A DNA stretch of 39,639 nucleotides from Gracilibacteraceae bacterium (GTDB taxonomy: Bacteria; Bacillota; Desulfitobacteriia; Desulfitobacteriales; Syntrophobotulaceae). Shown here one piece after another: positions 18,341-37,836 of this stretch (position 1 is the stretch's first letter; the number at the start of each line of letters is the position of its first letter). Location: the NCBI GenBank assembly GCA_031266805.1, contig JAISAH010000130.1:1-39639 (forward strand), read 5' to 3'. The notes below the pieces were generated by a model. It made no database searches and was not told the DNA's origin. It was given only the letters and a program-made list of their open reading frames with translations. Position numbers and translations under genes: made by a program.

Positions 18341-19300
18341 TCAGACCGTGTTCTCCGGCTGCCCCGCCAGATACCGCTCCAAGTTGCGGACGGCGATATC
18401 CATCAGGCGCTGCCGGGATTCCTTGGCCGCCCAGGAGATATGCGGGGTGATGATGCAGTTTTTGGCGGTGAGCAGCGGGTTGTTCGGGCGCACCGGCTCC
18501 ACTATCACCACATCCAGCCCCGCGGCGTACACCTTGCCGCTGTTCAGCGCCGCGGCCAGATCCGGTTCGTTGATCAGAGGGCCGCGGGAGTTGTTTAATA
18601 TTATGACTCCGTTTTTCATGCGGGCAATGCTGCCCCGGTTGATCATGCCCCTGTTCTCAGGGGTCAGATTACAGTGGAGAGCGATCACATCCGCCTCCGC
18701 GTACAGTTCTTCCAAACTGACGGCACAGGCGTATTCCTCCGGGTCTTTGATCGGAAAAGCGTCGTGGGCCAATACCTCCATACCGAAAGCGTGAGCCAGT
18801 TTTCCGGTGCTGCGCCCGATGCGCCCGTAACCGATGATCCCCATCGTTTTCCCGACCAGCTCCATCAGAGGGTAATCCCAGAAGCAGAACTCGCCCGCTT
18901 CCGCCCAGCGGCCCTGCCGAACCGCTTCCGCGTGATGTCCTACCCGGTTGCAGATTTCCAGCAGGAGCGCCATGGCGAATTGGGCGACTGTTTCCGTGCC
19001 GTAAGCCGGAATATTGGTCACCGTGATCCCCCCGGCTCGGGCGGCCTTAACATCCACTACATCGTATCCCGTGGCCAAAACGCCGATATAGCGCAATTGC
19101 GGGCAAGCCGCCATGGTCGCTGCGCTGATCGGCGTTTTGTTGACCAGTACGGCTTCGGCGCCACCGATCCTGGTCTGGATAAGAGCTTCGTTCCGTGGGT
19201 CGGTCAGATCATAGACAGTCAGGTCTCCTTGTCGGGCGAAACCTTCCCAGCTCAGATCCCCCGGGTTTTCCGTGTGGCCGTCCAAGATCACTATTTTCAT
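18341..19300 (-). CDS. D-2-hydroxyacid dehydrogenase (glycerate/hydroxypyruvate reductase-like)
   Basis: The 319-residue NAD-dependent enzyme has the Rossmann motif IGYGRIGRSTGKLAHAFG, the catalytic arginine region NSRGPLINEPDL, and the catalytic histidine in ITPHISWAAKESRQRL. ATGYDVVDVKAA and NIPAYGTETVAQFA are typical of glycerate dehydrogenase-like members. The ATG at 19300 follows AAGGGGG; an upstream in-frame codon has no better site. It would reduce a 2-keto acid or oxidise a D-2-hydroxy acid within the catabolic cluster. The exact substrate is not predictable. It follows a decayed permease fragment and precedes aconitase. Confidence 0.92.
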   Translation of the reverse strand: MKIVILDGHTENPGDLSWEGFARQGDLTVYDLTDPRNEALIQTRIGGAEAVLVNKTPISAATMAACPQLRYIGVLATGYDVVDVKAARAGGITVTNIPAYGTETVAQFAMALLLEICNRVGHHAEAVRQGRWAEAGEFCFWDYPLMELVGKTMGIIGYGRIGRSTGKLAHAFGMEVLAHDAFPIKDPEEYACAVSLEELYAEADVIALHCNLTPENRGMINRGSIARMKNGVIILNNSRGPLINEPDLAAALNSGKVYAAGLDVVIVEPVRPNNPLLTAKNCIITPHISWAAKESRQRLMDIAVRNLERYLAGQPENTV

Positions 19301-19406: not shown

Positions 19407-19590
19407 CTAAATCAAGCCGGCGCCTATCAATAAAGCCAACCAAATAAAAACTGTCAGGATCGAAAAAACGGAAGAGTAAACAACTTGCTGTCCCGCCAGC
19501 TCGGCGTCTCCACCCAATTGGTGGGCTACAGCGTAAGAAAAATCGGGAATACGGCGCTAAACGCCATTAGCATTATTGTCAAGCTAATTT
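19407..19590 (-). pseudogene. Frameshifted C-terminal remnant of an auxin efflux carrier (AEC) family permease
   Basis: On the minus strand one frame reads LTIMLMAFSAVFPIF, then hits a stop. A second frame continues SYAVAHQLGGDAELAGQQ and VVYSSVFSILTVFIWL before a TAG at 19409-19407. Adding one T to the T5 run near 19548 joins them. The GGDAELA followed by a hydrophobic helix is the usual end of AEC-type malate/auxin carriers. About 55 residues remain of a protein that is normally about 310. The upstream end overlaps the last codons of the dehydrogenase gene, implying a deletion at that junction. Confidence 0.65.
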
Positions 19591-20487
19591 CCTGCTGCGC
19601 CCGTTCACTCCGGCCAATTGTTCGTAAAACTTGACGATAGCGACACAGTCTTCCTCGCCCCAACCTTGAGACATGCCCACATTCAGCAATTCGTAAGCGT
19701 TCGCGATCACCGGCAAAGGCATACCGATCTGATGCGCCATATCCAAAGCCAGACCCACATCTTTCCGAGCCGTCTCCAGCTTGAACCGCGGCTCCGCCAT
19801 ACTGCCGTCCAAGACCCAAGGAATTCGCTTGTTCAAATGATAAGAGCGGGCGCCGCTGGTATTCAGGATCTGATACAGCAAGTCCGGATCCACGCCGGCT
19901 TTAACGCCAAGCATAAAGCCCTCTGTCGTAGTCACCATGTTGCTGATGGCGATGGCGTTGTTTACCAGTTTGACGGTCACTCCGGCGCCGGACGGCCCGG
20001 CCCGATGTATGACGCCTTTGCCGCCCAGCGCCTGGAACACGGCCTCGCCTTTGGCCACATCCTCGTCGTCGCCGCCGATAATCAGCGTCAAAGTGCCGTC
20101 ATAACAATTGGCAGGGCCGCCGCTCACCGGCGAGTCAACAAAGCCCACCCCGCTTTTTTTCCCTGCTTCATAACATACCCTGGTAGTCTGAAGATCAACG
20201 CTGCTCAGATCAATACAAACAGTGCCAGCCTTCGCGTTTTTCAGCACCCCGTCCTCGCCCAGATAAACATCGGTCACCGCTTTGGAATGCGGCAAAGAAG
20301 AACAGATGATATCGCAGTTTGCCGCGACTTCAGCCGCGCTGCCCGCCAGCGCCGCCAAGTGTTTAAAGCCCTCCGCGACTTCTTTTCTGAGCTCAAAAGC
20401 CAGAACAGAAATGCCGCACTCCGCCAACCGATTCACCATGTTGCCGCCCATCAGCCCCAATCCTATGAAACCAACTTGCTGCGCCAT
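19579..20487 (-). CDS. Beta-hydroxyacid dehydrogenase (3-hydroxyisobutyrate dehydrogenase family)
   Basis: At 302 residues this NAD(P)-dependent oxidoreductase matches the tartronate semialdehyde reductase / 3-hydroxyisobutyrate dehydrogenase family. The GFIGLGLMGGNM dinucleotide site, DSPVSGGPANCYDGTLT substrate loop, and the catalytic lysine in GAGVTVKLVNNAI are intact. The ATG at 20487 gives the standard MAQQVGFIG start behind GGGAGG; earlier ATGs at 20505 and 20526 are less likely. It begins 28 bases after the SDR stop. Its last ten or so codons run into the permease remnant, so the C-terminus may not be ancestral. Substrate is unknown. Confidence 0.92.
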   Translation of the reverse strand: MAQQVGFIGLGLMGGNMVNRLAECGISVLAFELRKEVAEGFKHLAALAGSAAEVAANCDIICSSLPHSKAVTDVYLGEDGVLKNAKAGTVCIDLSSVDLQTTRVCYEAGKKSGVGFVDSPVSGGPANCYDGTLTLIIGGDDEDVAKGEAVFQALGGKGVIHRAGPSGAGVTVKLVNNAIAISNMVTTTEGFMLGVKAGVDPDLLYQILNTSGARSYHLNKRIPWVLDGSMAEPRFKLETARKDVGLALDMAHQIGMPLPVIANAYELLNVGMSQGWGEEDCVAIVKFYEQLAGVNGRSRKLA

Positions 20488-20515
20488 TTTTCCCGCGCCT
20501 CCCATTTCGCTTCCC

Positions 20516-21301
20516 CTAGATTCCATTTTTTGCCTGCCAGGGCTTCGCAGTGTCCTGCAGCAGCATCTTTCCGCCTGTCACCTCGACGATTTCCCCCGTG
20601 ATGTAGCCGGCGGCGTCGGAAGCGAGAAATACATAGACCTGAGCGATCTCTTTCAAGGTTCCCATGCGCCGCATGGAAATCTGTGAGACTATAGCCTCCA
20701 GCTCTTCCGGCGCGCGTCCGGCCTGGATATCAGTCATCACGCTGCCGGCAGCCACGGCGTTTACCCTGATATTGTAAGGCGCCAGCGCTCCGGCCGCCAG
20801 TTTGGTCAAAGAGTTCATGCCGCCTTTGCTGGCGGCGTAAGACGCCCTTGTGGAGATGGTGATTCTGCCGCTGAAAGAAGAACTGTTCAGGATCACTCCG
20901 CCCCGCTCTTTCATGTGGTTGCCGGCGGCTTTGATCCCCCACATCACGGAACTCAGGTTGACGTTGATTACCTTCATCCAATCTTCCGGATCGACTTCCA
21001 GGATCGGCGAATTGATTATGATACCCGCGTTGTTCACCCAAATATCGATCTGTCCGAAACGGGCCGCCGCGTTATCCGCAAAGTTTTGCACTTCCTCGCA
21101 GTTCGCCACGTTCACCACTTGGGCGTACACATCATAACCGGCCGCGGCAAACTCCCGGCGAACCGCCTCCGTCTTTTCCGGTTTGGTGCCGCAGATGGCG
21201 ATCCGGCAACCTTCTTCGGCGAATTCTGCCGCGATCGCTTTCCCAAAACCGGAATTGCCGCCGGTGATAACGGCCACTTTTCCGCGCAGATTCAAATCCA
21301 T
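20516..21301 (-). CDS. Short-chain dehydrogenase/reductase (classical SDR)
   Basis: The 261-residue protein has the cofactor motif TGGNSGFGKAIA, the structural NNAG, the catalytic serine in NSSSFSGRI and the YxxxK pair in YAASKGGMNS. It ends with the usual GYITGEIVEVTGG. It is a cytosolic NAD(P)H-dependent oxidoreductase of an alcohol or keto group, resembling 3-oxoacyl-ACP reductase and gluconate dehydrogenase-type members. It lies between the DUF6282-like hydrolase and the beta-hydroxyacid dehydrogenase, with short gaps suggesting one transcript. The substrate cannot be assigned. Confidence 0.93.
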   Translation of the reverse strand: MDLNLRGKVAVITGGNSGFGKAIAAEFAEEGCRIAICGTKPEKTEAVRREFAAAGYDVYAQVVNVANCEEVQNFADNAAARFGQIDIWVNNAGIIINSPILEVDPEDWMKVINVNLSSVMWGIKAAGNHMKERGGVILNSSSFSGRITISTRASYAASKGGMNSLTKLAAGALAPYNIRVNAVAAGSVMTDIQAGRAPEELEAIVSQISMRRMGTLKEIAQVYVFLASDAAGYITGEIVEVTGGKMLLQDTAKPWQAKNGI

Positions 21302-21355
21302 CGCGCCTCGCTCCTTACAGAATAATGCTTCGCCTTGATCAGCGCTTCCTTATTC

Positions 21356-22264
21356 TTATTCCGTTGCCAAACCCAGATACCGCGCCGGGTTCACCTGCAC
21401 CATTTTCCTGACCTCATCAGCGGAAAAACCGATATTCAGCATAGTGGCTATATACATCCGCATCAGTTCCGGCTCCGGGGGATTCCAAGGACCAAAGGCG
21501 TCGGAACTCATGATAGCGTGATCCACGCCCACCGCCTCAATGGACTTGGCGATGACGCGCGGATCGACCCGGACGTGCATCGGCATGCAAGCGATAAAGG
21601 TATGCTCGATCCAGGCGCCTGTCGCGGCCGCTTCCACCTGCTGCTCCACCGTAGCGGCCACGGACTTGATATGGGGATGCGAGAAGGTGAAGCGGACGCC
21701 TTTTACCGCCGCCAACTCGGCCAGCTTCAATGTTTCCGCCGGACTGAGATGACCGGAAGAAACCGCCATGCCGTAATGCTCGGCGATATCCATAATGTCG
21801 GACACTTCCGGTTTGACCCGGCCGGCTGCATCCAAAACGGTGACGCCGCCGTTTTCTCTGCGCACCATATCGTCAACCTGGGGACAAAAAGCCCGGATCC
21901 GGTTCAGCGTGACGCCGCTTCTTTCGATATCATTCCGGGAACTCCAGGTGGGCATAAACACGACTTTCCCGCCCAGTTCCCCCGCTAGGGCCACCGCCGT
22001 CGGACTCAGGCCGCCGACAGTGTAGTTCAGCGTGACCGAACCCATGACCAAAACGTCTTGGGCCAGCCGCGAGAGTTCATAAGCCTGCATTACCGTGGGC
22101 CAGACGTGGGATTTCAGCACATAGCCGCGGATCCCGCACTCTTTGGCCATAACCGCCCAGTCATAATTGCTGATCCGCGAATCATAACTCAGTGACAACT
22201 CCGGGTAAGAATGAGCATGGACATCCACTGCCCCGCGCAGCAATTCTTCTACCGCTAATGACAT
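21356..22264 (-). CDS. Amidohydrolase-like protein, probable DUF6282 family
   Basis: A 302-residue protein with the metal-binding VDVHAHSYPE near the N-terminus, further histidines in VLKSHVWPT, SSGHLSP and TFSHPHIKS, and an aspartate in MSSDAFGPWNPP near the C-terminus. It ends with MVQVNPARYLGL, the usual last helix of TIM-barrel metal-dependent hydrolases. I recognise this as the family called DUF6282, but the name should be verified. Such proteins are found beside MmgE/PrpD and UGSC genes in catabolic clusters, as here. The reaction is unknown; hydrolysis of an amide, lactone or similar bond is a reasonable guess. It starts 28 bases after the MmgE/PrpD stop. Confidence 0.8.
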   Translation of the reverse strand: MSLAVEELLRGAVDVHAHSYPELSLSYDSRISNYDWAVMAKECGIRGYVLKSHVWPTVMQAYELSRLAQDVLVMGSVTLNYTVGGLSPTAVALAGELGGKVVFMPTWSSRNDIERSGVTLNRIRAFCPQVDDMVRRENGGVTVLDAAGRVKPEVSDIMDIAEHYGMAVSSGHLSPAETLKLAELAAVKGVRFTFSHPHIKSVAATVEQQVEAAATGAWIEHTFIACMPMHVRVDPRVIAKSIEAVGVDHAIMSSDAFGPWNPPEPELMRMYIATMLNIGFSADEVRKMVQVNPARYLGLATE

Positions 22265-22292
22265 AGTCGCGCCTTTCTGACAGAATATTGGG

Positions 22293-23645
22293 TTAACTCA
22301 GGGTACTCAGATAGCCGATAAAAGCCCGGCAGGAACCGAAAGCGCTTATGTCTTTCAGTTTTGCCAAAAATTCCCTCGTTTTTTCCTCGCCCAGCACCGG
22401 CGCCACCTGAAAACGGCTCTTATTTTCCAGCATGGCCTGGGAAAGGGGAAACTCCGGAGACCCGCTGGGTTTTGGCGTCTCGGCCATGAAAGTCCGACCG
22501 CCCTTCGTGGTCACTTCCGCCCGATAAGGCCATTCCCGAGGGTATCTGGCGGTCATCGCCTCATCGGCGGCCACGCTCACTAATTTCGCGTAAGCCGCCG
22601 CCTCCGGACTGCGGATGGCCTCCGGCGTAAAATCACTGATCGACAATCCGCCTTTGAGAAGGTAGGCGGCGATATTGTAATGGATGCTGAACTGCGCGTC
22701 CAGTACGGTGTCCGGCCGCGGCCGGTCCCCTTCCTCCGCCGCCATTTTGAATGTGACGATCCGGATCTGAGCCAGATCCTCTTTTTTCAGCTTATTCTCC
22801 GCCAGACAGGCGGCCGCGGCGTCTACGGCTCCGTGCATGAAGCGGCAGGAGGGATAGGGTTTAAGGCTGGCGCCGAGGAATCGGTATTCCGTGCCCAGAC
22901 TGCCCAGAAGGATATCTTCATCCCACTCTCCCGCTTCGCATCTGAATAGTCCGAATTGACCGGTCAGACTTTCTCCGGGATCAGCGAAACCTTCTTTGGC
23001 CAGCAGCGCGGAAGTGACGCCGCTTTCCGCCGATTTTGCCGCGTGATAGGCGCTGTTGACGATACTGCCGTCGATTTGGTATTGACGGTAGCCGCAGGCC
23101 GTGTCCGCCGCCAGACGGAGAGCCGCGCAAGTCCTTTCACCGTCAAGTCTTAGGAGCTTCGCGGCGGCCGCGGCTACTCCCAGCGGATTGCAGGTGCCGG
23201 TAGGATGAAAACCTCTGTCATAATGCCGCGGATTGATCGCTGTCGCCACCCTGGCCGCGACTTCATAGCCGAGGATCACCGCGGTCAGCATTTCTTCGAT
23301 CGAGGCGTCCAGCCACTCGCCGACGGCCAGAGCGCTCATGATCACCGCCGCTCCGCTGTGTACGGTGCCGGATTCCAAGACGTCGTCAAAAGTATTGTTT
23401 CTGGCCAGATAAGCGTTGACCGCCGCCGCGTCGCGCGCCGAGATCTTTTGGGGCGAGAGCAGCACCGAGGCCTGCTCGGCGGCGCCAAAACCGCGGTATA
23501 CCCCGGTCAGTGTATCGGCAAAAGGTCCTTTGACGCCGGCGACGCCGCAGGCAAAAACGTCCATGATCAATTGCCGCAAATATGGAAAATCTTTGCTATT
23601 GACTTCGGTATTGGCTACAAAATCCGCCAGCTTTTTAGTCGCCAT
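22293..23645 (-). CDS. MmgE/PrpD family protein
   Basis: This 450-residue protein belongs to the MmgE/PrpD family, whose characterised members are 2-methylcitrate dehydratase and iminodisuccinate epimerase or lyase. Family features are MDVFACGVAG near residue 30, SGTVHSGAAVIMSALA, GYEVAARVATAINPRHYDRGFHPT (shown here as its two halves GYEVAARVATA and HYDRGFHPTGT) and SLKPYPSCRFMHGAVDAA. It may dehydrate a hydroxy-polycarboxylate. The ribosome site is AAGGAGAT. It follows the UGSC gene after a 115-base gap with two strong hairpins and precedes the DUF6282-like gene. With aconitase at the cluster's end, a tricarboxylate route is conceivable but unproven. Confidence 0.9.
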   Translation of the reverse strand: MATKKLADFVANTEVNSKDFPYLRQLIMDVFACGVAGVKGPFADTLTGVYRGFGAAEQASVLLSPQKISARDAAAVNAYLARNNTFDDVLESGTVHSGAAVIMSALAVGEWLDASIEEMLTAVILGYEVAARVATAINPRHYDRGFHPTGTCNPLGVAAAAAKLLRLDGERTCAALRLAADTACGYRQYQIDGSIVNSAYHAAKSAESGVTSALLAKEGFADPGESLTGQFGLFRCEAGEWDEDILLGSLGTEYRFLGASLKPYPSCRFMHGAVDAAAACLAENKLKKEDLAQIRIVTFKMAAEEGDRPRPDTVLDAQFSIHYNIAAYLLKGGLSISDFTPEAIRSPEAAAYAKLVSVAADEAMTARYPREWPYRAEVTTKGGRTFMAETPKPSGSPEFPLSQAMLENKSRFQVAPVLGEEKTREFLAKLKDISAFGSCRAFIGYLSTLS

Positions 23646-23686
23646 TTCAATCTCCTTAGAACTCGTCGGAAAATGGGGAGACCTGG

Positions 23687-23733
23687 ATTCCGGAACGAGT
23701 CCGGAATGTACCCGCAGGGCGGCGCCCTGCGGG
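23687..23733 (-). promoter_or_regulatory. Two perfect hairpins between the UGSC and MmgE/PrpD genes
   Basis: ATTCCGGA/TCCGGAAT (23687-23694 with 23700-23707) and CCCGCAGGGC/GCCCTGCGGG (23711-23720 with 23724-23733, extendable by one pair) are both perfect. Neither is followed by a T-tract on the minus strand, so they are not standard terminators. They could modulate transcript stability or partial read-through. Confidence 0.6.
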
Positions 23734-23760
23734 TGGAGAGGTTAAGTGAAAACCGGAAAA

Positions 23761-25416
23761 CTATTCTTCGATCTTTTTCGTGATGGAGAAGCCGACGCCG
23801 GTGGTGTAAGAGGACTTCGTGGCCTCGCCGCCGGTGACGATGATCCGGAACCAGTCGGGGCTGGATACGATAGGCAGCGTGGCGCCGGTAGTGTCGGTGA
23901 AGATCCAGCGCAAACCGCGGATGACCCGTCCGGTTTCATAGGTGTTGGCAAAAACGGATGCGGGCTGAACGGCCTTGCTGAACAGATAGGCCTGGACATC
24001 CTGTTTATTCCATCCGTGCTTGGCAATGATCTGCGCATGATCGGGGCACAGCAGCACCGCGTTATGGGTGAAGCGGCCGACGAACCAGGCGCGGTTCGCG
24101 TAAGAAGCCAGCCCGTTGATGGTGTAGGCGTAACTGTTCAGGATGCCTTCCGGAGTTTCGTTTTTCATATCGAAAATCTCCAGCTGCGATTCCACGCCGA
24201 ATACAGTAACCGTACTCTCATCCTTGCTGTAACCCATATCAACATGGTAAGGGCTCCACGGGCTGTTCTCCTCGTTCTCAGCCAGACACATGCTGTACTT
24301 GATCGGCGCGCCCAAAGTGTCAAGATCCAGTTCGCCGACATAAGCGTGACCGATGTTCATGATGATCAGACGAAGCGCGCGGCCGATCACGGTGTTCACC
24401 GCGGATTGCGAACCGGGGCCCAAGGCGCCGCGGCCGGAGCAGATGTTCAGTTTTTTTGCAATCGGGCCGTTGACGACCAGAAGAGGAGCGTGAGGGCCGG
24501 TGGAAGTGGTGACAGTCCTTAACCGATATTTGTCGTCCGTCATCGCCTCTACACTGGCGATCAGGATTGGCAGATGCGCCGGCGCGCAACCGGCCATCAC
24601 GGCGTTGACAGCGATTTTTTTCACTGTAGCGAAACCCTGTCCCGGATCCATCACCGCGACGATATCGCTCGGTTTCCGCTTCGTGCCTTTCAGCATGGCG
24701 TTTACCCGTTCCGCTGTAGGAGGGATGAGGGGGAAGCCGTCGCCCCATCTCTCGGAAAGGAAGAGCTCGTTCATTTTTTCCCAGGCGGCAAACTCGCTGG
24801 CGCCGGAGACCTCGACGGTTTCGGCGTCTTTCTGGGCTATAGCAGCCATATCTTCTTCCTGTCCCTGGGATTTTGCCTTGCCGCCCTTGTCTCCCTTTGT
24901 GGTCAGATTATTGACCAGCTGATCCGTTATCTGGTCGATGGCCGTCCAAATCTCATCTTTGCTGAGATTGGTGATGGTGTTGCAGGGCATGATCGTATAT
25001 TTATGATCCGGCATACCAAAGCTGGCGCAAGTCAGTTTCACGTCGTCCTCGAAAGGAACGCTTTCCAGCGAAGTACAGGGGACGCCTCTCTTTTCCATCT
25101 GAACCAAATCGTGAACCAGCCAGGAAGTGCAGGAACCGCAGTCGCCGGTGCTGCCGATGATCACGTCGCAAGCCGCGGGAACAATGTCGTGCGTTTCCGG
25201 TTTGCAAGGAAAGTCATCGTCAAAGAATTTGATAGTGACGTTCTTGTATAATTTTGCCAAATTATCGCCGGCCCTGCGCAGGGCTATATCGCCGCCGCTT
25301 TTGCGGTTCCAGTACAGACCGATGGTTTTTCCATCCAAAGTATCGGGGCGTTTCGCAATCGGATAAACGATGCTGGTTTGAGCTGACTCAGGGGTTAAAA
25401 GCGTTAATTTTTCCAT
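23761..25416 (-). CDS. UGSC-family protein (cysteine form) fused to a conserved C-terminal domain of unknown function
   Basis: The 551-residue protein has two parts. Residues 1-175 form a UGSC-type domain: GLYWNRKSGGD, KFFDDDFPC, and the key motif GSTGDCGSCTSWLVHD, in which Cys93 (codon TGC) stands where homologues carry selenocysteine. A charged linker (about 175-200, GDKGGKAKSQGQEED) joins a second domain, with WGDGFPLIPPTAERV, MAGCAPAHLPIL, GRGALGPGSQSAVN, and a C-terminal TGGEATKSSYTTGVG. The CxxC-like CGSC suggests a redox or thiol role, but the reaction is not known to me. The second half seems related to the partial protein at the window's right edge. It starts after AAGGAG and lies between an MBL-fold hydrolase and MmgE/PrpD. 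Confidence 0.82.
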   Translation of the reverse strand: MEKLTLLTPESAQTSIVYPIAKRPDTLDGKTIGLYWNRKSGGDIALRRAGDNLAKLYKNVTIKFFDDDFPCKPETHDIVPAACDVIIGSTGDCGSCTSWLVHDLVQMEKRGVPCTSLESVPFEDDVKLTCASFGMPDHKYTIMPCNTITNLSKDEIWTAIDQITDQLVNNLTTKGDKGGKAKSQGQEEDMAAIAQKDAETVEVSGASEFAAWEKMNELFLSERWGDGFPLIPPTAERVNAMLKGTKRKPSDIVAVMDPGQGFATVKKIAVNAVMAGCAPAHLPILIASVEAMTDDKYRLRTVTTSTGPHAPLLVVNGPIAKKLNICSGRGALGPGSQSAVNTVIGRALRLIIMNIGHAYVGELDLDTLGAPIKYSMCLAENEENSPWSPYHVDMGYSKDESTVTVFGVESQLEIFDMKNETPEGILNSYAYTINGLASYANRAWFVGRFTHNAVLLCPDHAQIIAKHGWNKQDVQAYLFSKAVQPASVFANTYETGRVIRGLRWIFTDTTGATLPIVSSPDWFRIIVTGGEATKSSYTTGVGFSITKKIEE

Positions 25417-25502
25417 GATAATGACTCCTTCTCAATCTTATTCGCTGACGTTTCATGATTCCCAGGGGCTTCGGTTCTGGGGGCTCCGGCGCGCGGTACG
25501 TT

Positions 25503-26276
25503 TCAAGGGGACATAAGACGCCCCTCCTTTCTGAAGACATTACTGTCGTGCGCAGGCAAAACGGTAACGCCTTCTTTTTCTATCATCTGCTGAATTTTTT
25601 CCATGGAAGCCCAAACATCAGCCGTATTGTTAAAAACCCCTCCGGGAATTCCCGTTTCTAAATTTTCAGAGGTATTGACAATATCGCCAGGGAGCAAAAA
25701 CTTCCCTTCGGGCGTGTCGACCAGCACGCCCTGAGAACCCGCCGTATGCCCCGGCAACGGAACCAATGCCACGCCTTCGTCGGCTTTTGTGTCGCCATCT
25801 ACTAAAATCAGCCGGTTATAGTAACGTAAAAAGTAAGGGAGACGATCTTTGTAGCACACTTCATAAAACTTGTGATCCGCGCGCAGCGGCGCGACAGCGT
25901 ATAAGAACTCACGCTTTTGCAGATATATTCTGGCGTTAGGCACATACAGCATACCAATAGCGTGATCCCAATGCAAATGGGTCAATATCGCCGTATCAAT
26001 ATCCTCAGGCTTCAAACCGTGGACGGACAAGGCGGCAGTCAAAAGCTGATCTTCACGAATGCTAACCGGGTTATGCTCCGCGCTCAAACGTTCTGCTTCC
26101 GGCCCCGGACCCGCGTCGACAAGAATATGGCGGCCGTCTTCGAGATTTGTCAGCAACCAGGCAATGAGCGGCGAGGGTACGATTCTTCCGACGTCATTTG
26201 CCACGCCAAAACGACTGATCAAAGTCGCCATCGTCATATCCAGCGTTCCCAAATTTAGCGGAGCTATTTTCCACAT
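25503..26276 (-). CDS. MBL-fold metallo-hydrolase, N-acyl homoserine lactonase-like
   Basis: The 257-residue enzyme has the metal motif LTHLHWDHAIG (HxHxDH), a further histidine in LPGHTAGSQGVLV, an aspartate in LLPGDIVNT and HDSNVF near the C-terminus. Overall order and size resemble the lactonase branch of the metallo-beta-lactamase fold, with two metals expected. In this catabolic setting it more likely opens a lactone or thioester intermediate than quenches quorum signals; that is inference. It begins ATG after GGGGGGCGGCGGG. It sits 70 bases after the AtoE-like gene, the gap holding a perfect hairpin. Confidence 0.9.
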   Translation of the reverse strand: MWKIAPLNLGTLDMTMATLISRFGVANDVGRIVPSPLIAWLLTNLEDGRHILVDAGPGPEAERLSAEHNPVSIREDQLLTAALSVHGLKPEDIDTAILTHLHWDHAIGMLYVPNARIYLQKREFLYAVAPLRADHKFYEVCYKDRLPYFLRYYNRLILVDGDTKADEGVALVPLPGHTAGSQGVLVDTPEGKFLLPGDIVNTSENLETGIPGGVFNNTADVWASMEKIQQMIEKEGVTVLPAHDSNVFRKEGRLMSP

Positions 26277-26346: not shown

Positions 26347-27786
26347 TCAGAAAACCACAAGGAAGAAGAAGGTGCAGACGATATACGTCCCTATGCAGAA
26401 TACAAGTGTATAAGGAAGCATTTTTCTGAACTCGACGTGGCAAAGAGCGACGTGAGGCAGGCACCAGAAAGGTTGAATGGCGTTGGTGGTCAGATCGCCG
26501 AAGGTGTAGGAGAGCAGCAGCGCCGGAATGTCGATATTCAGTTTGGCCGCAACATCTAAGAGATAGGGAGCTTCAATGACAAATTTTGACCCCCCGGAGG
26601 GAACCGCCAGATTCAAAATCGACGAGTAGATATAAGCGACAAACAAGAAGGTATCCGAGGTGGAAACAGTGAGGAAGGCGTTGGAGATGACGTCAGACAG
26701 GCCGGTATAGACGATTATGCCGAAGATTCCCGCATAAAGAGGAAACTGAACGATGATGCCCCAGCAAGCGCCTGTCGTCGCTATGGCTGCCTGGGTAAAG
26801 CGTTCGGGGGTGCCGCACAGCAGGAAGCCGGCCATGAGCGTGACAAAAATGAAATTATTCAAAGTTAAGCCGTCTATCCCTTGTGTAGCAAACAATCTGA
26901 CGCACCAGACCGCCCCGAATATGCCAACAATATAAGACAGTATCCGGCTGTTATTGATCCAGTTCGCGAAGGTGCTGCGATCCGGGTTCTGCTCATACAT
27001 TGAGGTGACCTGAGCCATGTCGTCCAACAGTCCCTTGGTCGCTCCCTGCATTTTCGAGCCGTTTTTCGGCACCAGCAAGCATACGGCGACAAAAATCATG
27101 ACGAATATGATCGCGATCAAAACCAGATGTTTCCAGCCAAGAACGGTCGTAGTGAGAGGATAGACGTCAGCCAAATAGTCCCGCGCAGTATCACTGGCGG
27201 CTAAACTTTTCAGATATCCCGGAGTATTGCCGTAAAGCGGAGCGGCTTGGGAGATGCCGATTCCCGGGATAGTGCAGCAATAGGTGGCGGCGACCAGAGC
27301 CGGCCCGTGAATAGGATATCCTTTTTCCTTGGCCGCCAGCAGGACGTTGCGCAGCATGGCGATTCCCACCATCATGCCGATGCCCCAGTGGAAGTAAATA
27401 AGGATCCAGGCACTGATAAGGACCAGAGCATAGGCCTGGAACCAGTTGTTCGGCAGCACGGCCACTTTCCGGATCAGCTTCTGCACCGGCGGGGCGACAG
27501 CCACAATATTGCCGGTGATCATGATCATGCTCATCTGCATGGCAAAAGTCATCAAACTCCAGAAACCCTGGGTCCAGGAGTTCATGACGCTGGTCTGCCC
27601 TTCGGCGCTGTCAAAAAAGAGCGGAGCGTTAGTGAAGATCAGCGCCAGGACGATGACAATGACCGTGAGCAGAAAAGCCCACACCATTGAATTCGGCGTG
27701 TAGGTTTCAAAAAACCAGATAAACTTTTCCACAAAGGTTTTTTTCTTGTTGTTATCAGCATTCTCCGTATTCGTTTCCGATGTCAT
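26347..27786 (-). CDS. atoE: Short-chain fatty acid transporter, AtoE family
   Basis: A 479-residue membrane protein with about 12 helices beginning FVEKFIWFFETYTPNSMVWA. The family is recognised by FHWGIGMMVGIAM, GYPIHGPALVAATYCC, IVQFPLYAGIFGI and, near the C-terminus, AVPSGGSKFVIEAPYL and TFGDLTTNAIQPFWCLPH. AtoE-type proteins move short-chain fatty acids such as butyrate or acetoacetate. Here it could export a CoA-transferase product such as acetate or take up a short-chain substrate. It follows the 3-hydroxyacyl-CoA-dehydrogenase-like gene by 42 bases, with ribosome site AGGGGAG. Confidence 0.92.
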   Translation of the reverse strand: MTSETNTENADNNKKKTFVEKFIWFFETYTPNSMVWAFLLTVIVIVLALIFTNAPLFFDSAEGQTSVMNSWTQGFWSLMTFAMQMSMIMITGNIVAVAPPVQKLIRKVAVLPNNWFQAYALVLISAWILIYFHWGIGMMVGIAMLRNVLLAAKEKGYPIHGPALVAATYCCTIPGIGISQAAPLYGNTPGYLKSLAASDTARDYLADVYPLTTTVLGWKHLVLIAIIFVMIFVAVCLLVPKNGSKMQGATKGLLDDMAQVTSMYEQNPDRSTFANWINNSRILSYIVGIFGAVWCVRLFATQGIDGLTLNNFIFVTLMAGFLLCGTPERFTQAAIATTGACWGIIVQFPLYAGIFGIIVYTGLSDVISNAFLTVSTSDTFLFVAYIYSSILNLAVPSGGSKFVIEAPYLLDVAAKLNIDIPALLLSYTFGDLTTNAIQPFWCLPHVALCHVEFRKMLPYTLVFCIGTYIVCTFFFLVVF

Positions 27787-27828: not shown

Positions 27829-28785
27829 TCACAGCTTGCCGTGATACTTCAGCAGCAATACCAGCCCCTGATCACGAAAAGCTATTATCTCTTCATTGGT
27901 TCGTCCGTGCCTTTCATCCCGCAAGGCAAGAGCCTCATCCATCATAGGCGTCAACTTTTCTTTCAGTCCATCTGGGTATTTTTTCCAATCGGCCATATCG
28001 CGCCACCACATCTCTTGCGCGTCGCTATACTTCCTGACATTGCCGGCAAGGCCTTCATCCCCCCCGGTCAGATGAAAAACCGCGAAATGTCCCAGCAAAC
28101 CCCAGCGCAGCCCGGGACCGTAGACTACTGCGCGGTCTATTTCATCCATACTGCAAACTCCGCGGTCCAGCAGGTCCAGCGCTTCTCGGTACACCGCCAT
28201 CTGTATCCGGTTGGAGATGAACCCCAACGCCTCCTTGCGCAGGATAATCGGCTCCTTGCCTATCTCCATGTAGAAATCATAAGCCTGTTGCAGCTTTCCT
28301 TCATCCGTCACGTCGCTTCTGGTCATTTCAACCAGCGGAAGCAAAAACACAGGGTTGTACGGATGAGCGCCCACGAACCTCTCCGGGCGTTTAGCCCGCG
28401 CCGCGATGTCCGAAATAAGAAACCCCGAGGTACTGGAAGCGACGATCGTATCAACGCGGCAGTTCGCATCAATGATTTTCGCCATCTCCTGCTTTATCTC
28501 CAATTTCTCCGGCCCGCTCTCCTGCACAAAATCGGCGCTTTTCAGGGCTTTGCTCACGTCTGACGTCATCGTGAAATTTTTCATGAAGATCTCGACTTGC
28601 GCGGGGGTGTACACCTCCGCCTTCACCAAAAAGGCAAAGTTGTCACGGATCCTCTTTTCCGCGTGCGGGAACAGATCTTCGCTCAAGTCATACAGGGTCA
28701 CATCCAATCCGGCCATCAAAAAGTTGGTAGCCCAACCCGTGCCGATCAGCCCGGAACCGAAACAGCAGACATTCTTGATTTTCAA
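27829..28785 (-). CDS. 3-hydroxyacyl-CoA dehydrogenase-like enzyme (possible carnitine dehydrogenase type)
   Basis: The 318-residue protein has the NAD motif CFGSGLIGTGWATNFLMAG, the SSTSGFLIS catalytic-serine region, the histidine in FVGAHPYNPVFLLPLVE, and a C-terminal helical domain with GFISNRIQMAVYREALDL and GLRWGLLG. The HPYNPVFLLPLVEM and GPGLRWGLLG forms are those of members acting on free 3-hydroxy acids, such as L-carnitine dehydrogenase and gulonate dehydrogenase-like (lambda-crystallin) proteins, more than of fatty-acid beta-oxidation enzymes. Together with BKACE upstream this suggests oxidation of a 3-hydroxy acid to the 3-keto acid. It starts ATG after GGAGGGG. The exact substrate is inference. 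Confidence 0.87.
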   Translation of the reverse strand: MKIKNVCCFGSGLIGTGWATNFLMAGLDVTLYDLSEDLFPHAEKRIRDNFAFLVKAEVYTPAQVEIFMKNFTMTSDVSKALKSADFVQESGPEKLEIKQEMAKIIDANCRVDTIVASSTSGFLISDIAARAKRPERFVGAHPYNPVFLLPLVEMTRSDVTDEGKLQQAYDFYMEIGKEPIILRKEALGFISNRIQMAVYREALDLLDRGVCSMDEIDRAVVYGPGLRWGLLGHFAVFHLTGGDEGLAGNVRKYSDAQEMWWRDMADWKKYPDGLKEKLTPMMDEALALRDERHGRTNEEIIAFRDQGLVLLLKYHGKL

Positions 28786-28849: not shown

Positions 28850-30163
28850 TTAAATACGCGAGGGCAGCCACAGGGTTATCTGCGGGAAGATAGCCATCAA
28901 CACCAGCATTATCAAGATGATGATGACAAACGCGGGTACTCCCCGGTAAATTTCGCCGGTGGTGACATTCGGCGGCACTACGCCCATGAGGTAGAACAGG
29001 GATGTAGCGAAAGGAGGTGTAATAAACGAGGTCTGGAGCATGACGACGATCATCATCACTGTCCAGAGGGTATCGAAACCGAAACTGTTCAGAATAGGCA
29101 GGAAGATCGGCATGATGATCAGCATGATGCCAAGCCAGTCAATGAGCATCCCCAGAATAAAGACGATCAGCAAGACGGCGATCAGTGTGCCCCAAGGACC
29201 GAGACCGATGCCGAGGATTGCTTTCTCAACAACAAAATTGCAGCCAATGCCGAAGAAAACGGCTGTGAAGATATTGGCGCCCATAGCGATGAAATAGACC
29301 ATCGTGCTGGTCTTGAGGGCGGAGACAGCGGCGTTGAGAATAGTTTTCCAGTTCAGCTTCCGGTAAGCCAAGGCCAGGATGATGCTGCCCAGCGCGCCTG
29401 TAGCCGCCGCTTCCGTCGGAGCGCAGACGCCGCCCAGGATCATACCAAGAACAGCGACGATCAGGAAGAGGAAGGGCACCAGCGCCAGCAAGCCTTTCAG
29501 GAGCGAGGCCTCGGCGAAATCGGAACTCTCGTAGTCAAAGGTGTCCTTGATCATATCCTTGCGCAGCCTGACGACGAAAAAAGTATAGAGAATGTACATA
29601 ATACCCAGACCGACGCCGGGGACGATCGCCGCGCTAAAGAGTTTGACCACGGAGATGCCGGCCGCCGGCCCGAAGATCACGAGCATGATTGAAGGCGGGA
29701 TGAGAATCCCCAGTGAACCACCCGCGGCGACGATGCCCGTAGCCAGACTGTGATTGTAGCCGCGTTTTAACATAGCAGGCAAAGCCAGAAGACCCATAGC
29801 TGTGACCGAAGCGCCGACGACCCCGGTGCAGGCGGCGAAGATGATGCAGAGAACGAGGGTGGCAATGCCGACGCCGCCTTTGATCTTGCGCATCCAGTAG
29901 CCCAGACAGTTGAAGGCTGTCTCCGCGACGCCCGAGGTGTCCAGCATCGCCCCCATGAAAATGAACAGCGGGATGGCGATATAGGTGTAATTCTGAAAGA
30001 CGCCGAAGGTCTTGGAAGCCAAGAGCGGGACAACCATTGGGCCCCAGCCGGTCAGCCCGAAAATCAAACCCATCCCGGCCAGAGTAAAAGCGACCGGGAA
30101 GCCCATGAATACGCCTATGAATACGCCGGCGAACATGAGGACGGTTATTAGCTCGACGCTCAT
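28850..30163 (-). CDS. TRAP transporter large permease (DctM), second system
   Basis: A 437-residue, roughly 12-helix protein with GFPVAFTLAGMGLIFG, the VTAMGLLALPAML segment, GGSLGILIPPSIMLVIFG and QTSFITPPFATSLFYLMG. It differs clearly from the 4544-5839 DctM and is nearer to the FcbT3/TakM type. The start codon overlaps the DctQ stop in an ATGA. With DctQ and the DctP protein encoded upstream it forms a full Na+-dependent importer. Confidence 0.94.
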   Translation of the reverse strand: MSVELITVLMFAGVFIGVFMGFPVAFTLAGMGLIFGLTGWGPMVVPLLASKTFGVFQNYTYIAIPLFIFMGAMLDTSGVAETAFNCLGYWMRKIKGGVGIATLVLCIIFAACTGVVGASVTAMGLLALPAMLKRGYNHSLATGIVAAGGSLGILIPPSIMLVIFGPAAGISVVKLFSAAIVPGVGLGIMYILYTFFVVRLRKDMIKDTFDYESSDFAEASLLKGLLALVPFLFLIVAVLGMILGGVCAPTEAAATGALGSIILALAYRKLNWKTILNAAVSALKTSTMVYFIAMGANIFTAVFFGIGCNFVVEKAILGIGLGPWGTLIAVLLIVFILGMLIDWLGIMLIIMPIFLPILNSFGFDTLWTVMMIVVMLQTSFITPPFATSLFYLMGVVPPNVTTGEIYRGVPAFVIIILIMLVLMAIFPQITLWLPSRI

Positions 30164-30699
30164 AGTTCATCCTCCTCGATGGCGGCAGCCGGGGTAAAAT
30201 AGGCGCTCATGCTGCGGAGCAGTTCGACGGCGCCCTGTAAGAGGAGAACGATCATTGAGATCAGCAGAACCATCCGGCAGGGCCACATCAAGGGCAGCCA
30301 GGAAGTCTGCGCCGAGCTTTCGGCATGGATATACGAATTGACTAGGGCGGTCTTGCAGGACCCGATCATGAAGAACATAAACGGGAAGAAGAATACCATG
30401 TAGCCAATAAGGTCGAGAACGAACTTGCCGCGGGCTGACACCTTCTGATAGATGATGTCCGCCCGGACATGACCGTTTTCCTTGAGGACATAGGCGCCGC
30501 CCAGAAAGACTGAAGAACCGGTGAGCATCCATACCAGCTCGATGCCCCAAATGCTCGCGCCCGAAAGAAAATACCTGTTCACAACATCATAGATAAAGAT
30601 GAATACTAAGGGATAGATCAAGAAACAGGCGAAATAAAAAATGCATTTGTTCATCTGGCTGATCGTCTTATCACACAATTTAAGGATTCTCAATATCAC
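30160..30699 (-). CDS. TRAP transporter small permease (DctQ), second system
   Basis: At 179 residues with four helices it contains the conserved RYFLSGASIWGIELVWML and GGAYVLKENGHVRADIIY segments of the larger DctQ subtype. The start is a GTG seven bases after AGGAGG. The last four bases overlap dctM, so the two permeases are translationally coupled. The gene follows the DctP gene by 75 bases. Confidence 0.92.
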   Translation of the reverse strand: MILRILKLCDKTISQMNKCIFYFACFLIYPLVFIFIYDVVNRYFLSGASIWGIELVWMLTGSSVFLGGAYVLKENGHVRADIIYQKVSARGKFVLDLIGYMVFFFPFMFFMIGSCKTALVNSYIHAESSAQTSWLPLMWPCRMVLLISMIVLLLQGAVELLRSMSAYFTPAAAIEEDEL

Positions 30700-30774
30700 A
30701 CCTTCACCTCCTCAGGAAGATATGCGGTCGAAGAACTCTTTTAGATCAGAACATCCTCGACCGCGCCGTTTTTT

Positions 30775-31884
30775 CTATTCCAGCATCCACTGCGGCCAGG
30801 GCAAGTTCATAGAATCGGAGTATGAAGCGTAGTTTTTCGCGAATTCTTTCTGGGAATCTACAACCCGTTTCATCCAAGGATTGGTTTCAGATTTCTGCTC
30901 CAGCCACTCCTGCACCCACTGATTCATAGTGTTCACGGCGTCATCCGAAAGGAAACAGACTTCGATGCCGGCTTCTTCGATAGCCTTCATGGCGGTGATA
31001 TTATCCATTCTCTGAGCGCCGTAGTTATTGAGGATGGCTTCGGCGCAGGCGGACTCAACGACCGCTTTGAGGTCATCCGGCAGAGCTTCCCATCTATCCT
31101 TCCGGATAGCGATGGCGTTATTACCGCTGGGTTGGTGGATGCCGGGGCGGATGACGTATTTGGCGACATCCTGAAAACCCATGGAGAGGTCGGTACTCGG
31201 CGTGGAGTACTCGCCGGCGTCAATAACGCCGCGCTCCAAACCAGGGACGATCTCCGTGGCGGGCAGTGCGTTGATAGAAATGCCGTGATCGGCGAGCACG
31301 CTGCCGAAAATCGGCATAAATCTCACAATAATGTTCTGCATATCCGCTATCTCGCGAATCGGCTTGTTACTCCACAGGAAATCCTCGCCGTCTACAGCCA
31401 AAGTTAAGAGAATATGCTGGTTCATGTCATAGTAGTCGGCCATCTCCTGCCAAAGTTCCATACCGCCGCCGTATCGAAACCACAGAGCTTGATCGATCGG
31501 TTGAGAGAACAGACCCGGCGTCGATGTGAAAAGAGCGAACGCCTCGTCAATGCCGGTAAGCTGCCCGCCGTAAAAATTTACGCCGTCAACAATGCCGTCG
31601 CGCAGAGCGTTGCCCATTTCACTATTAGGGAAGATAGCGTCCGCCGAATAATACTCTATCTGCAGGCGGCCGTTGGAAAGTTCCATGATCCGTTTCATGA
31701 GAGCTCGGGTGTAATTATCCTGTGTGGTGCCGGCGCTTTGAAAACCCTGGATCTTCCAGGTGATCACCTCGCCGGCCGCCGGCGAAGGCGTGTTGGCCGC
31801 CGGCGCCGCTGCAGGAGAACTGCAGCCGGACGCAACCGCGACGACAAGACAAAGAATACAGAGAAGCGTTAAGGTTTTCTTCAT
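30775..31884 (-). CDS. TRAP substrate-binding lipoprotein (DctP), TakP-like, copy 1
   Basis: The ATG at 31884 follows GAGGAGG and gives a clean lipoprotein signal (MKKTLTLLC, lipobox VASGC). Mature protein 369 residues in total, with WKIQGFQSAGTTQDNY, FRYGGGMELWQEM, LERGVIDAGEYSTPS and VIRPGIHQPSGNN. These are the landmarks of the TakP subgroup, whose characterised member binds 2-keto acids. A keto or hydroxy acid is therefore a fair guess for the ligand. A second, very similar binding protein is encoded at 34124-35239. This copy directly precedes dctQ and dctM. Confidence 0.92.
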   Translation of the reverse strand: MKKTLTLLCILCLVVAVASGCSSPAAAPAANTPSPAAGEVITWKIQGFQSAGTTQDNYTRALMKRIMELSNGRLQIEYYSADAIFPNSEMGNALRDGIVDGVNFYGGQLTGIDEAFALFTSTPGLFSQPIDQALWFRYGGGMELWQEMADYYDMNQHILLTLAVDGEDFLWSNKPIREIADMQNIIVRFMPIFGSVLADHGISINALPATEIVPGLERGVIDAGEYSTPSTDLSMGFQDVAKYVIRPGIHQPSGNNAIAIRKDRWEALPDDLKAVVESACAEAILNNYGAQRMDNITAMKAIEEAGIEVCFLSDDAVNTMNQWVQEWLEQKSETNPWMKRVVDSQKEFAKNYASYSDSMNLPWPQWMLE

Positions 31885-31969: not shown

Positions 31970-32977
31970 TCAGACCGGATCGTACCGGCGGGGAGCGCCA
32001 AGGCCAAGCATCTCTCTGGCTTGGGCGACTGTAGCGATCGGGCGGCCCAGTTCCCTGGCGACCCGCACGACCCGCTCCACCAACTGAGCGTTGCTCGCCG
32101 CCGGTTGTTTGGGCCCGTACATCGGATTGTCTTCCATGCCCACGCGGATATGATGGCCGAGAATTATGCCCAGCGTCACCATAGCGTTCTGACTGCCGCC
32201 GATACCGATGATGCTAAACAGAGTCTCCGCCGGCAGGATTCGGGCCGCCTGCAACATGATCTCCACGGTCGGATAAAGACCGGTGCCGCCGAACAGCATT
32301 TGCACCCAATAAGGTTTATCCAAAACCCCGGCGCTTATCATATTGTAGATATGCTTGGCGTTGTGCATGTCAAACATTTCCAGCTCCGGCTTGATCCCGT
32401 TTTTACGCATTTCCCGCGCGGTTTCAATGCAGTCGTCCCACGTCATAAGATAGTCCATATGGTAGTCGACCGCCGGGCGGGGGCATTTGAGCGGCGCTTC
32501 CCGATCCTTTGTGGAGTTCAAATGAGTCAGAGAGGTAATATCCATGCTGGCCAATTCCGGCCGGGCGGCGATCGACGGCCAAATCGGGTCGGAAACCGTT
32601 TTTTCTTCCTTGAAGATCTGGCGGCCGCCCATACAGGTGTTGTTGATGATCACATCCGGGCATTTTTGCCGTACCAGATAGTTGACTTCCTGAAAGTCTC
32701 TGGGCTTACTCGTCGTCGCGTAAAGGTGGAGCGGGTCGCGGGCATGGATATGCACCGACACAGCTCCGGCATTATAGGCGTCATAAGCCGCCCCCGCCTG
32801 TTCTTCCGCGCTCTCCGGCAGATTGGGATTGGCTTCTTTGCCGTGGACGCCGCCGCTGAGAGCGCAGCTGATGATCATAGGAGACATTTTTGTCAGACCG
32901 TGACGAGCAATCTTGTTCACATAGTCCATTGTTTCCCGATAACTGCCTAACAGATAATCCTTGATTCCTTCCGTCAT
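31970..32977 (-). CDS. 3-keto-acid cleavage enzyme (BKACE, Kce family)
   Basis: The 335-residue zinc enzyme condenses a beta-keto acid with acetyl-CoA and cleaves it to acetoacetate plus a shorter acyl-CoA. The metal histidines are His76 and His78 in VSVHIHARDP, and a conserved glutamate is in PELEMFDMH. Also typical are ISCALSGGVHG, INNTCMGG, and HHIRVGMEDN near the C-terminus. The protein has about 30 extra residues before the first strand (family members usually begin at the position of Ile35); the ATG behind GGAGGGG supports this longer form. The neighbours (3HCDH-like enzyme, CoA-transferases, thiolase) can supply its substrate and use its products. Confidence 0.92.
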   Translation of the reverse strand: MTEGIKDYLLGSYRETMDYVNKIARHGLTKMSPMIISCALSGGVHGKEANPNLPESAEEQAGAAYDAYNAGAVSVHIHARDPLHLYATTSKPRDFQEVNYLVRQKCPDVIINNTCMGGRQIFKEEKTVSDPIWPSIAARPELASMDITSLTHLNSTKDREAPLKCPRPAVDYHMDYLMTWDDCIETAREMRKNGIKPELEMFDMHNAKHIYNMISAGVLDKPYWVQMLFGGTGLYPTVEIMLQAARILPAETLFSIIGIGGSQNAMVTLGIILGHHIRVGMEDNPMYGPKQPAASNAQLVERVVRVARELGRPIATVAQAREMLGLGAPRRYDPV

Positions 32978-33054: not shown

Positions 33055-34104
33055 TTAGAATATATCCTCATAGCCTGCCAGTACATCGTCAAAACGCGAC
33101 AGGCAGCCCATATCGTTTACCCCCTTTCTGGCTTCGGCTTCTTTCACCAGCTCGACCACTCTGGTGTTCACCGGGGTGGCAATACCATGTTTTCGGCCAT
33201 ACGCCGCCACATGCCCGTTGATGAAATCAATTTCGGTGGGCAGCTTTTTTTCCAGATCTTGCAGCATACTGGCCTTGCCGTTCCGCCTGGGATCGTACCA
33301 ATGGAAAAAGATTTCCCTGACCCTGCGCATCTCACTTCTGTTTTTCCAGTACAAACTTTCAATATCGGTGTCAAAGGCGGTCAGCATCTTATGGCCTTCG
33401 GCATGGCACACCTCAAGGCACTCTTTGGCAATTATCGCTTTCGCCGTCAGGGCTTTAGGGTTGTCGATTACCTCGCCGTAGGTGCAGTTCAGCGCGGCGG
33501 AAAGACCGCTGCCAGAAGCGTTGACAAGCAACTTGGTCCAGCGCGCGTCCATCAAGTCTTCCATCACATTGCACTTGCCCACGTTGTCCAGTATGGTGGC
33601 CACTGCCTTTATACGCGGGGTAATGCCGCCGCTTAGCTCGCCCAAGTCAAAGGCGGCCTTCTTAAACGCATCGTAGGGAGCTATTTCAGCCGAAACACCC
33701 GGCGAAAGCCAAGTGCCCGGAAAGAGCATGGCGCCGCCTATGGTACGCTCCTGCCCCACCGTCTCGGCCACCGAAGGTTCGGGGATGCCGTTCTGCAGCG
33801 CGCACACTATGCTATCTTCGTTCAAATATTTCAGCAGATTGGGAAGAACCACCGGGTTGGTAGTTTGTTTGTTAAGCAGAAACACCAAGTCGTAAATCCC
33901 TTCCATTTTGTCCGGGGTAAAGGCTTTCACCGAAATGGTAAAGGTTTTATCATCCTCCACATGTTTTATCGTGGCTCCTCTTTCCTGCATGGCCGCCACA
34001 TGCTCTTTGTTGGCGTCATACATCAACACGTCACAACCTGCCTTTGTCAGGTACGCGCCAATAATCGTACCCATCGAACCAGCGCCAATAACTGCAATTC
34101 TCAT
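33055..34104 (-). CDS. Ketopantoate reductase family (ApbA/PanE) oxidoreductase
   Basis: At 349 residues it is longer than the usual 300-310 of PanE. The N-terminal NAD(P) site VIGAGSMGTIIGAYLTKAG is standard, followed by FLLNKQTTNP and CALQNGIPEP, and the catalytic lysine region DARWTKLLVNASGSGLSA. Many ApbA/PanE homologues in catabolic operons are not pantoate enzymes but reduce or oxidise other 2-keto or hydroxy acids. The operon position, between a TRAP binding protein and BKACE, supports such a role. It starts 19 bases after the stop of copy 2 of dctP. Confidence 0.9.
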   Translation of the reverse strand: MRIAVIGAGSMGTIIGAYLTKAGCDVLMYDANKEHVAAMQERGATIKHVEDDKTFTISVKAFTPDKMEGIYDLVFLLNKQTTNPVVLPNLLKYLNEDSIVCALQNGIPEPSVAETVGQERTIGGAMLFPGTWLSPGVSAEIAPYDAFKKAAFDLGELSGGITPRIKAVATILDNVGKCNVMEDLMDARWTKLLVNASGSGLSAALNCTYGEVIDNPKALTAKAIIAKECLEVCHAEGHKMLTAFDTDIESLYWKNRSEMRRVREIFFHWYDPRRNGKASMLQDLEKKLPTEIDFINGHVAAYGRKHGIATPVNTRVVELVKEAEARKGVNDMGCLSRFDDVLAGYEDIF

Positions 34105-35239: not shown

Positions 35240-35274
35240 TGAGGGCCTCCCCTTTTTTAATGTCGCTCGGTCGT

Positions 35275-37806: not shown

Positions 37807-37836
37807 ATTCACCCTCAACTAATCTGATGTCCGCCC

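Follow-up and report, generated by a model that had tools for sequence, protein, structure and literature searches.

The subject of this analysis is a 39,639-nucleotide stretch of DNA, contig JAISAH010000130.1 of a Gracilibacteraceae bacterium (assembly GCA_031266805.1), referred to here as the window, and in particular a fusion protein of the UGSC family that it encodes. The new result is that this UGSC protein, the oddest member of the gene run in which it lies, has an N-terminal domain that very probably shares ancestry with the selenocysteine domain of GrdB. An initial annotation had singled out six consecutive genes (19579–26276) as a possible undescribed system. We consider that these six genes may form the downstream portion of a single long, operon-like run that would serve the uptake and oxidative breakdown of an organic acid or its lactone, a reading to which we give a probability of about 0.5. 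In the Global Ocean Sampling data UGSC ranks with the more abundant selenoprotein families, with 255 sequences in the paper that described it (PMC2398784), and a 2026 review counts it among the selenoproteins with largely uncharacterised functions (PMC13188914).

Homology of the UGSC domain to GrdB and PrdB

To compare the families we used hhalign to align a UGSC profile of 37 sequences with GrdB sequences from 16 genomes of the phylum and with 11 PrdB-type sequences, reading through the selenocysteine codon. UGSC aligned to columns 326–426 of GrdB with a probability of 97.1, an E value of 5.7e-11 and a score of 78.9, which placed the first residue of the UGSC motif on the selenocysteine and the second cysteine on the cysteine of GrdB. 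In control alignments 60 column shuffles scored no higher than 31.0 and the reversed profile scored 19.5, while masking the motif columns still left a score of 56.9. For PrdB the probability was 89.4 and the score 46.9, against at most 20.0 for 60 column shuffles, 18.6 for the reversed profile and 30.9 with the motif masked. A relationship to Asp/Glu-racemase-type cysteine proteins was also considered and is not supported (score 14.2).

Matches to the GRDB family were found in 43 of 119 genomes of the phylum; none was found in the genome containing the window, in a search whose controls also gave no match. Of the papers on selenium use, selenoproteomes or metalloproteomes that mention both, two treat UGSC and GrdB as separate families, and one reports homology between PrdB and GrdB. 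We found no published link between UGSC and GrdB in the literature searched, which covers preprints and subscription papers incompletely, and no publication since 2018 on UGSC function, judged by title. At three further loci (L267, L268 and L269) the encoded selenoproteins resemble PrdB but have UPxC in place of UGTC, and they may form a second subfamily of the PrdB type.

Selenocysteine in relatives and cysteine in the window

The initial annotation had described the protein as carrying the UGSC thiol motif. The motif is indeed present, but as Cys-Gly-Ser-Cys rather than with selenocysteine (C93-G-S-C96, the first codon being TGC at 25138–25140), and in a fusion with approximately 340 additional C-terminal residues. 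Among 55 UGSC stretches found by motif, some of which may be spurious frames, the first motif position is TGA in 45 and a cysteine codon in ten, the window copy being one of the ten. The 42 bases that follow the TGA have a mean hairpin z of −2.28, with 36 of 43 TGA forms below −1, while the same region has a mean z of −0.34 in nine cysteine forms (including L003, the window's own copy, and L038, whose frame is probably spurious); these z values derive from mononucleotide shuffles, and the sequences behind them share ancestry. The hairpin z of the window gene is +1.68, so that neither a selenocysteine codon nor the hairpin of a selenocysteine insertion sequence (SECIS) is found there. This supports the use of selenocysteine in the relatives and a change from selenocysteine to cysteine in the line leading to the window. 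Transfer of the gene into this lineage is also suggested, because its nearest relatives, with identities of up to 55% (alignment A5), come from Chloroflexota and other phyla, while those of its own phylum are near 33%.

Structure of the fusion protein

The AlphaFold model of the fusion has a pLDDT of 92.9 and a pTM of 0.93, and that of the C-terminal domain alone 94.9 and 0.93. When compared with solved folds the model of the UGSC domain is Rossmann-like, with Z scores of 8.7 to 11.4 across the 50 matches listed and no family standing out; LarB, PurE, B12-binding, SDR (short-chain dehydrogenase/reductase) and receiver folds align about equally well. No thioredoxin appears among those 50 matches, which does not exclude one.

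In their 2008 paper, the discoverers of UGSC considered its fold likely to be thioredoxin-like and listed a UGSC/Unknown_1 fusion (PMC2398784); that Unknown_1 is the C-terminal domain described here is our assumption. Following that view, UGSC would be a thiol-disulfide oxidoreductase acting to protect or reduce other enzymes, and its place in the gene run would be incidental. The UxxC/CxxC motif would suit such a function, but several points argue against it: the homology to GrdB, the Rossmann-like model, the conserved partner domain that is fused or adjacent to UGSC, and the location of these genes in catabolic loci. From the models the N-terminal domain is not evidently thioredoxin-like, and we regard an oxidoreductase of this kind as very improbable.

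The C-terminal partner domain (about residues 205–551) belongs to no Pfam family, and in 101 members scanned with Pfam only UGSC recurs, the remaining matches being scattered and weak. In haloarchaea the domain is a separate gene. The residues that are invariant in 58 partner domains include Cys277 (fusion numbering), E380 and W387. No convincing solved fold was found for it: the best Foldseek E value was 0.0089, none reaching 0.001, and the best Z score in a second look was 5.8, over approximately 90 residues of a chorismate mutase. The top seven Foldseek matches were fumarate hydratases, presumably of class I, but at these E values we did not accept the domain as fumarase-like. Its probability against the GrdB profile is 0.2 percent, and a GrdE- or PrdA-like identity was rejected with a probability of 0.1 for each, while GrdE and PrdA align with one another at 99.6. 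The domain is extraordinarily numerous in one Chloroflexota metagenome-assembled genome (G351, JACPQD01, 5.0 Mb; loci L032–L034, L039, L054, L072, L074, L085 and L088), which contains at least 122 copies (122 of 122 scored, from 216 first-look candidates); at L034 it lies beside family-5 ABC solute-binding proteins.

The gene run and its probable pathway

The genes of the run are as follows, all on the minus strand.

19579–20526 (−), beta-hydroxyacid dehydrogenase, PF03446 and PF14833 (NAD_binding_2 and NAD_binding_11), last gene of the run
20516–21301 (−), SDR, PF13561, with a YxxxK motif, read by eye, that we take to be the characteristic SDR motif
21356–22264 (−), DUF6282 protein, PF19799 (186 bits), metal-hydrolase-like
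22293–23645 (−), MmgE/PrpD family protein, PF03972 and PF19305
23761–25416 (−), UGSC fusion, 551 amino acids, PF24696 over residues 6–172 only (101.6 bits, cut-off 25)
25503–26276 (−), metallo-beta-lactamase-fold (MBL) hydrolase, lactonase-like, PF00753, HxHxDH read by eye
26347–27786 (−), SCFA_trans, short-chain fatty acid transporter family, AtoE-like (Pfam)
27829–28785 (−), 3-hydroxyacyl-CoA dehydrogenase-type protein; carnitine 3-dehydrogenase is among the nearest NCBIfam models, whose cut-offs it does not reach
28850–31884 (−), TRAP transporter: DctM 28850–30163, DctQ 30160–30699, DctP 30775–31884
31970–32977 (−), beta-keto acid cleavage enzyme (BKACE), PF05853 (241 bits)
33055–34104 (−), ketopantoate reductase-like (PanE/ApbA) dehydrogenase
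34124–35278 (−), second TRAP solute-binding protein DctP
35275–36588 (−), CoA-transferase of the acetyl-CoA hydrolase/transferase family; nearest model butyryl-CoA:acetate CoA-transferase, below cut-off
36616–37818 (−), acetyl-CoA C-acyltransferase (thiolase), above the TIGR01930 cut-off
37837–38499 (−), 3-oxoacid CoA-transferase subunit B, above the TIGR02428 cut-off
38496–39185 (−), 3-oxoacid CoA-transferase subunit A, above the TIGR02429 cut-off
39211–39639 (−), C-terminal end of a second UGSC-partner-domain gene, cut by the contig end

The six genes of the initial annotation are where it placed them, all open and end to end on one strand, and its family names hold, with every protein above the Pfam cut-offs. 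The interval is arbitrary as a natural unit, since the six are the distal, downstream end of a co-directional run that extends from 39185 to 19579 with intergenic gaps of −11 to 115 bp and comprises 18 complete genes, or 19 with the gene cut by the contig end, which begins 25 bp further on. The negative gap is an 11-base overlap of the beta-hydroxyacid dehydrogenase and SDR genes. Past the end of the run, after 278 bp, lies a 2-hydroxyacid dehydrogenase gene (18341–19300) that we place outside it. Among the 303 open stretches of the window the truncated gene is the sole match, besides the UGSC fusion itself, to the partner-domain profile A6 (35.7 bits, E 9e-11), and the run therefore holds two genes of the UGSC-partner family. 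A second TRAP system is present on the other strand, where a DctM permease of 566 amino acids (4139–5839, plus strand) begins with 143 residues that the DctM model does not cover and that may be a fused DctQ-like portion.

The run brings together BKACE, a 3-oxoacid CoA-transferase and a thiolase, and we regard it as very probably an operon-like catabolic unit. In the pathway that we propose, the TRAP transporter would import an acid, the MBL and DUF6282 hydrolases would open lactone- or amide-type bonds, and the MmgE/PrpD protein would move a hydroxyl group or double bond. The dehydrogenases would then oxidise a beta-hydroxy group to give a beta-keto acid, from which BKACE would transfer the acetyl end to acetyl-CoA, yielding acetoacetate and an acyl-CoA. 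The acetoacetate would be converted to acetyl-CoA by the CoA-transferase and the thiolase. The suggestion in the initial annotation of a route combining lactone or amide hydrolysis with alcohol oxidation fits these families and their neighbours, while the idea of the six genes as a self-contained conserved system is not supported. Its remark that no described pathway uses this set agrees with the literature searched, where we found none.

The exact reactions are not assignable from the families, because the NCBIfam equivalog models are mostly not reached by the six proteins. The MmgE/PrpD protein scores 18.3 bits against the prpD equivalog (cut-off 458), the MBL protein 93.1 against AHLLactAiiA (cut-off 375), the UGSC protein 89.4 against NF041046 (cut-off 125) and the beta-hydroxyacid dehydrogenase 231 against its nearest model, 2-hydroxy-3-oxopropionate reductase (cut-off 397). 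Among solved structures the MmgE/PrpD protein is nearest to iminodisuccinate epimerase (2hp3) and a bacterial IRG1-like protein (7bra), and the MBL protein to 4-pyridoxolactonase (3aj3) and AHL lactonases. Enzymes of the amidohydrolase superfamily bind metal through the set HxH, Lys, His, His and Asp, which is present and invariant in 12 aligned DUF6282 proteins, where the invariant residues are HxH (16, 18), K51, H172, E177, H196, E220 and D255. A sequence search found no relative of DUF6282 among solved structures, and no mention of it was found in the literature searched. A relative of the TRAP DctM lies near DUF6282 in 5 of 20 loci of the phylum (L180–L199), which suggests that DUF6282 has its own link to TRAP uptake.

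Co-occurrence of the six families

The initial annotation had named a survey of co-occurrence beforehand as the test that could refute it, and the result was mixed: UGSC and DUF6282 occur together above chance in a minority of loci, while the full set was not seen. We analysed 84 loci, consisting of five plasmid records and 79 distinct loci from a scan of genome contigs for UGSC, scoring the presence of each family by tblastn at E 1e-10. Relatives numbered at least 588, of which the scan took the 80 best, so that the counts apply to those family members closest to the query and not to the whole family, and the genes of each locus were called as simple longest frames, with some shadow frames in GC-rich loci. 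Near UGSC we found SDR in 12 loci, MmgE in 8, DUF6282 in 4, HIBDH in 2, and MBL and PanE in 1 each. Within the phylum, relatives of the UGSC protein (P0005) occur in 14 of 299 genomes, including the window's own, and DUF6282 scores above its cut-off in 22 of the 299; apart from the congener described below, the phylum has 19 further regions with UGSC, none of which contains DUF6282, and 20 with DUF6282, none of which contains UGSC. No locus outside the genus, whether among these or the follow-up loci, contained more than three of the six families, and we reject the six-gene module as a conserved unit beyond the genus.

For the 48 loci whose genomes could be searched whole, UGSC and DUF6282 were seen together in 2, compared with 0.17 expected from copy number and locus length (P 0.013). 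Adding plasmid loci L027 and L028, which were opened after both families had matched there, gives 4 of 50 against 0.33, an inflated value beside which 2 of 48 is the fair one. The clusters of L027 (Natrinema) and L086 (Natrialba) are closely similar, so their UGSC–DUF6282 pairing counts as one event. UGSC and MmgE/PrpD were seen together 7 times in 6 of the 48 loci, where at least 3.3 were expected (P 0.05). MmgE/PrpD is hugely expanded in these genomes, with at least 44 matches in 11 of the 48 and 286 first-look candidates in one; the copy numbers used were capped, so the expectations are lower bounds. Given this expansion its occurrence near UGSC is not clearly above chance, and MmgE/PrpD is not supported as a regular partner of UGSC.

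Within the genus the run appears stable, judged by the gene order in a congener (G299) in which four of the six genes are kept in the order SDR–DUF6282–MmgE–UGSC with 91–97% protein identity, on a contig of 3976 bases that ends inside UGSC. At a locus of another congener (G300, L219) an MBL relative (41%) is found together with a CoA-transferase and a thiolase, and MBL may therefore accompany the CoA-dependent half of the pathway. Further afield, a Dehalococcoidia locus (L076) has MBL, UGSC, DUF6282 and the partner domain in a row, along with Amidohydro_2, and a Chloroflexota locus (L230) has two DUF6282 genes, the partner domain, a UspA-like gene (by eye) and MmgE. Two haloarchaeal loci, L028 and L232, possibly of one lineage, share UGSC, DUF6282, BKACE and PanE with the window. 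Relatives of UGSC have neighbours that handle carboxylates, namely TctC receptors, CaiB-type CoA-transferases and phosphoenolpyruvate mutase/isocitrate lyase. A phage origin was rejected, as there was no match in phages and none of 42 pattern matches in viral contigs was confirmed as a relative.

These data bear on whether the six genes are simply a chance assembly of unrelated catabolic genes with no joint pathway. That at most three families recur together outside the genus, that MmgE lies near UGSC at close to chance frequency, and that SDR and hydroxyacid dehydrogenases are ubiquitous would all be expected of such an assembly. The tight co-directional spacing, the order kept in the congener, the pairing of UGSC with DUF6282 in both Chloroflexota and haloarchaea and the four-gene row in Dehalococcoidia would not, and we consider a chance assembly improbable.

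Proposed role of the UGSC fusion

The UGSC fusion may supply a step beyond those of ordinary hydrolases and dehydrogenases, and we tentatively propose that this is a cleavage by thiolate. The attacking group would be the thiolate of C93, replaced by a selenolate in most relatives, on a domain of Rossmann-like form as in GrdB. Its target would be an electrophilic carbon in a substrate bound by the C-terminal domain, from which the leaving group would be expelled. C96, or C277, would resolve the resulting thioether, giving a reductive cut of a carbon–heteroatom bond, and recycling of the disulfide would need a thiol reductant.

The same cysteine or selenocysteine could instead serve redox-neutral covalent catalysis, as an isomerase, lyase or carboxylase-like enzyme comparable to the Rossmann-like LarB or PurE types. 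The N-terminal model aligns about as well with these proteins as with others, and the carboxylate-handling neighbours of the relatives would fit. However, the profile homology is to GrdB and PrdB, to which a review assigns reductive deamination and reductive ring cleavage, and the conserved C-x-x-C pair suits disulfide formation. We regard redox-neutral catalysis as unlikely.

Several observations weigh against the proposed pathway and the reductive step within it. The UGSC–GrdB match spans just 98 columns or so and leaves the first 70 or so residues of UGSC unaligned, and with the motif masked the probability for PrdB falls to 24.8. In those reductases the carbonyl partner GrdE or PrdA activates the substrate, and no such pyruvoyl proprotein is evident here given the probabilities of 0.1 for the partner domain. 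The window BKACE matched four named BKACE models but reaches the cut-off of none of them, and BKACE is near UGSC in only 1 of the 84 loci. Relatives of UGSC occur in many different neighbourhoods, so the substrate may differ. In congener G299 the MBL relative (77% identical) is on a separate contig, beside a DctM just 31% identical to that of the window. Finally, the 19 genes of the run include no glycerate kinase, unlike the deoxyribonate system discussed below.

A broader and more speculative possibility is that UGSC and its orphan partner constitute a third, unrecognised branch of selenol/thiol enzymes of the GrdB/PrdB kind, which would cleave bonds reductively without a pyruvoyl proprotein in the breakdown of organic acids. 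This branch would be found in Bacteria and haloarchaea, would have radiated to the copy number seen in the Chloroflexota genome, and in the lineage of the window would use sulfur in place of selenium within a beta-keto acid operon. In any case, homology to the reactive domain of GrdB and PrdB gives UGSC a testable chemistry and the BKACE operon a testable metabolic setting, while the partner domain, with its invariant cysteine, is a clear target for structure determination and assay.

Comparison with known systems

The window protein belongs to the known UGSC family (PF24696/NF041046) and is the same kind of fusion as that listed in the 2008 paper (PMC2398784), but it is below the NF041046 cut-off, is a cysteine form without the SECIS hairpin and lies inside a BKACE-type run. 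With GrdB and PrdB it shares a homologous domain in which the U/C-G-T/S-C motifs align and the flanking pattern agrees. GrdB and PrdB are the selenocysteine subunits of glycine-type and D-proline reductases, while the window protein has cysteine and a partner domain unrelated by profile to GrdE or PrdA.

For the run as a whole the closest described design appears to be the oxidative catabolism of deoxyribonate, established genetically in Pseudomonas simiae and others. According to that study (PMC6365646), both systems have a lactonase, an SDR, BKACE, a beta-hydroxyacyl-CoA dehydrogenase-type protein, steps from acetoacetate to acetyl-CoA and transporters, and the deoxyribonate genes are partly in co-directional clusters, as in the window, although their transporter is of the MFS rather than the TRAP type. 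The window adds UGSC (two genes), DUF6282, MmgE/PrpD, a PanE-like protein and a second hydroxyacid dehydrogenase. Because of these extra enzymes and the missing glycerate kinase we use the deoxyribonate pathway as an analogy for the design of the run, and not as an identification of its pathway.

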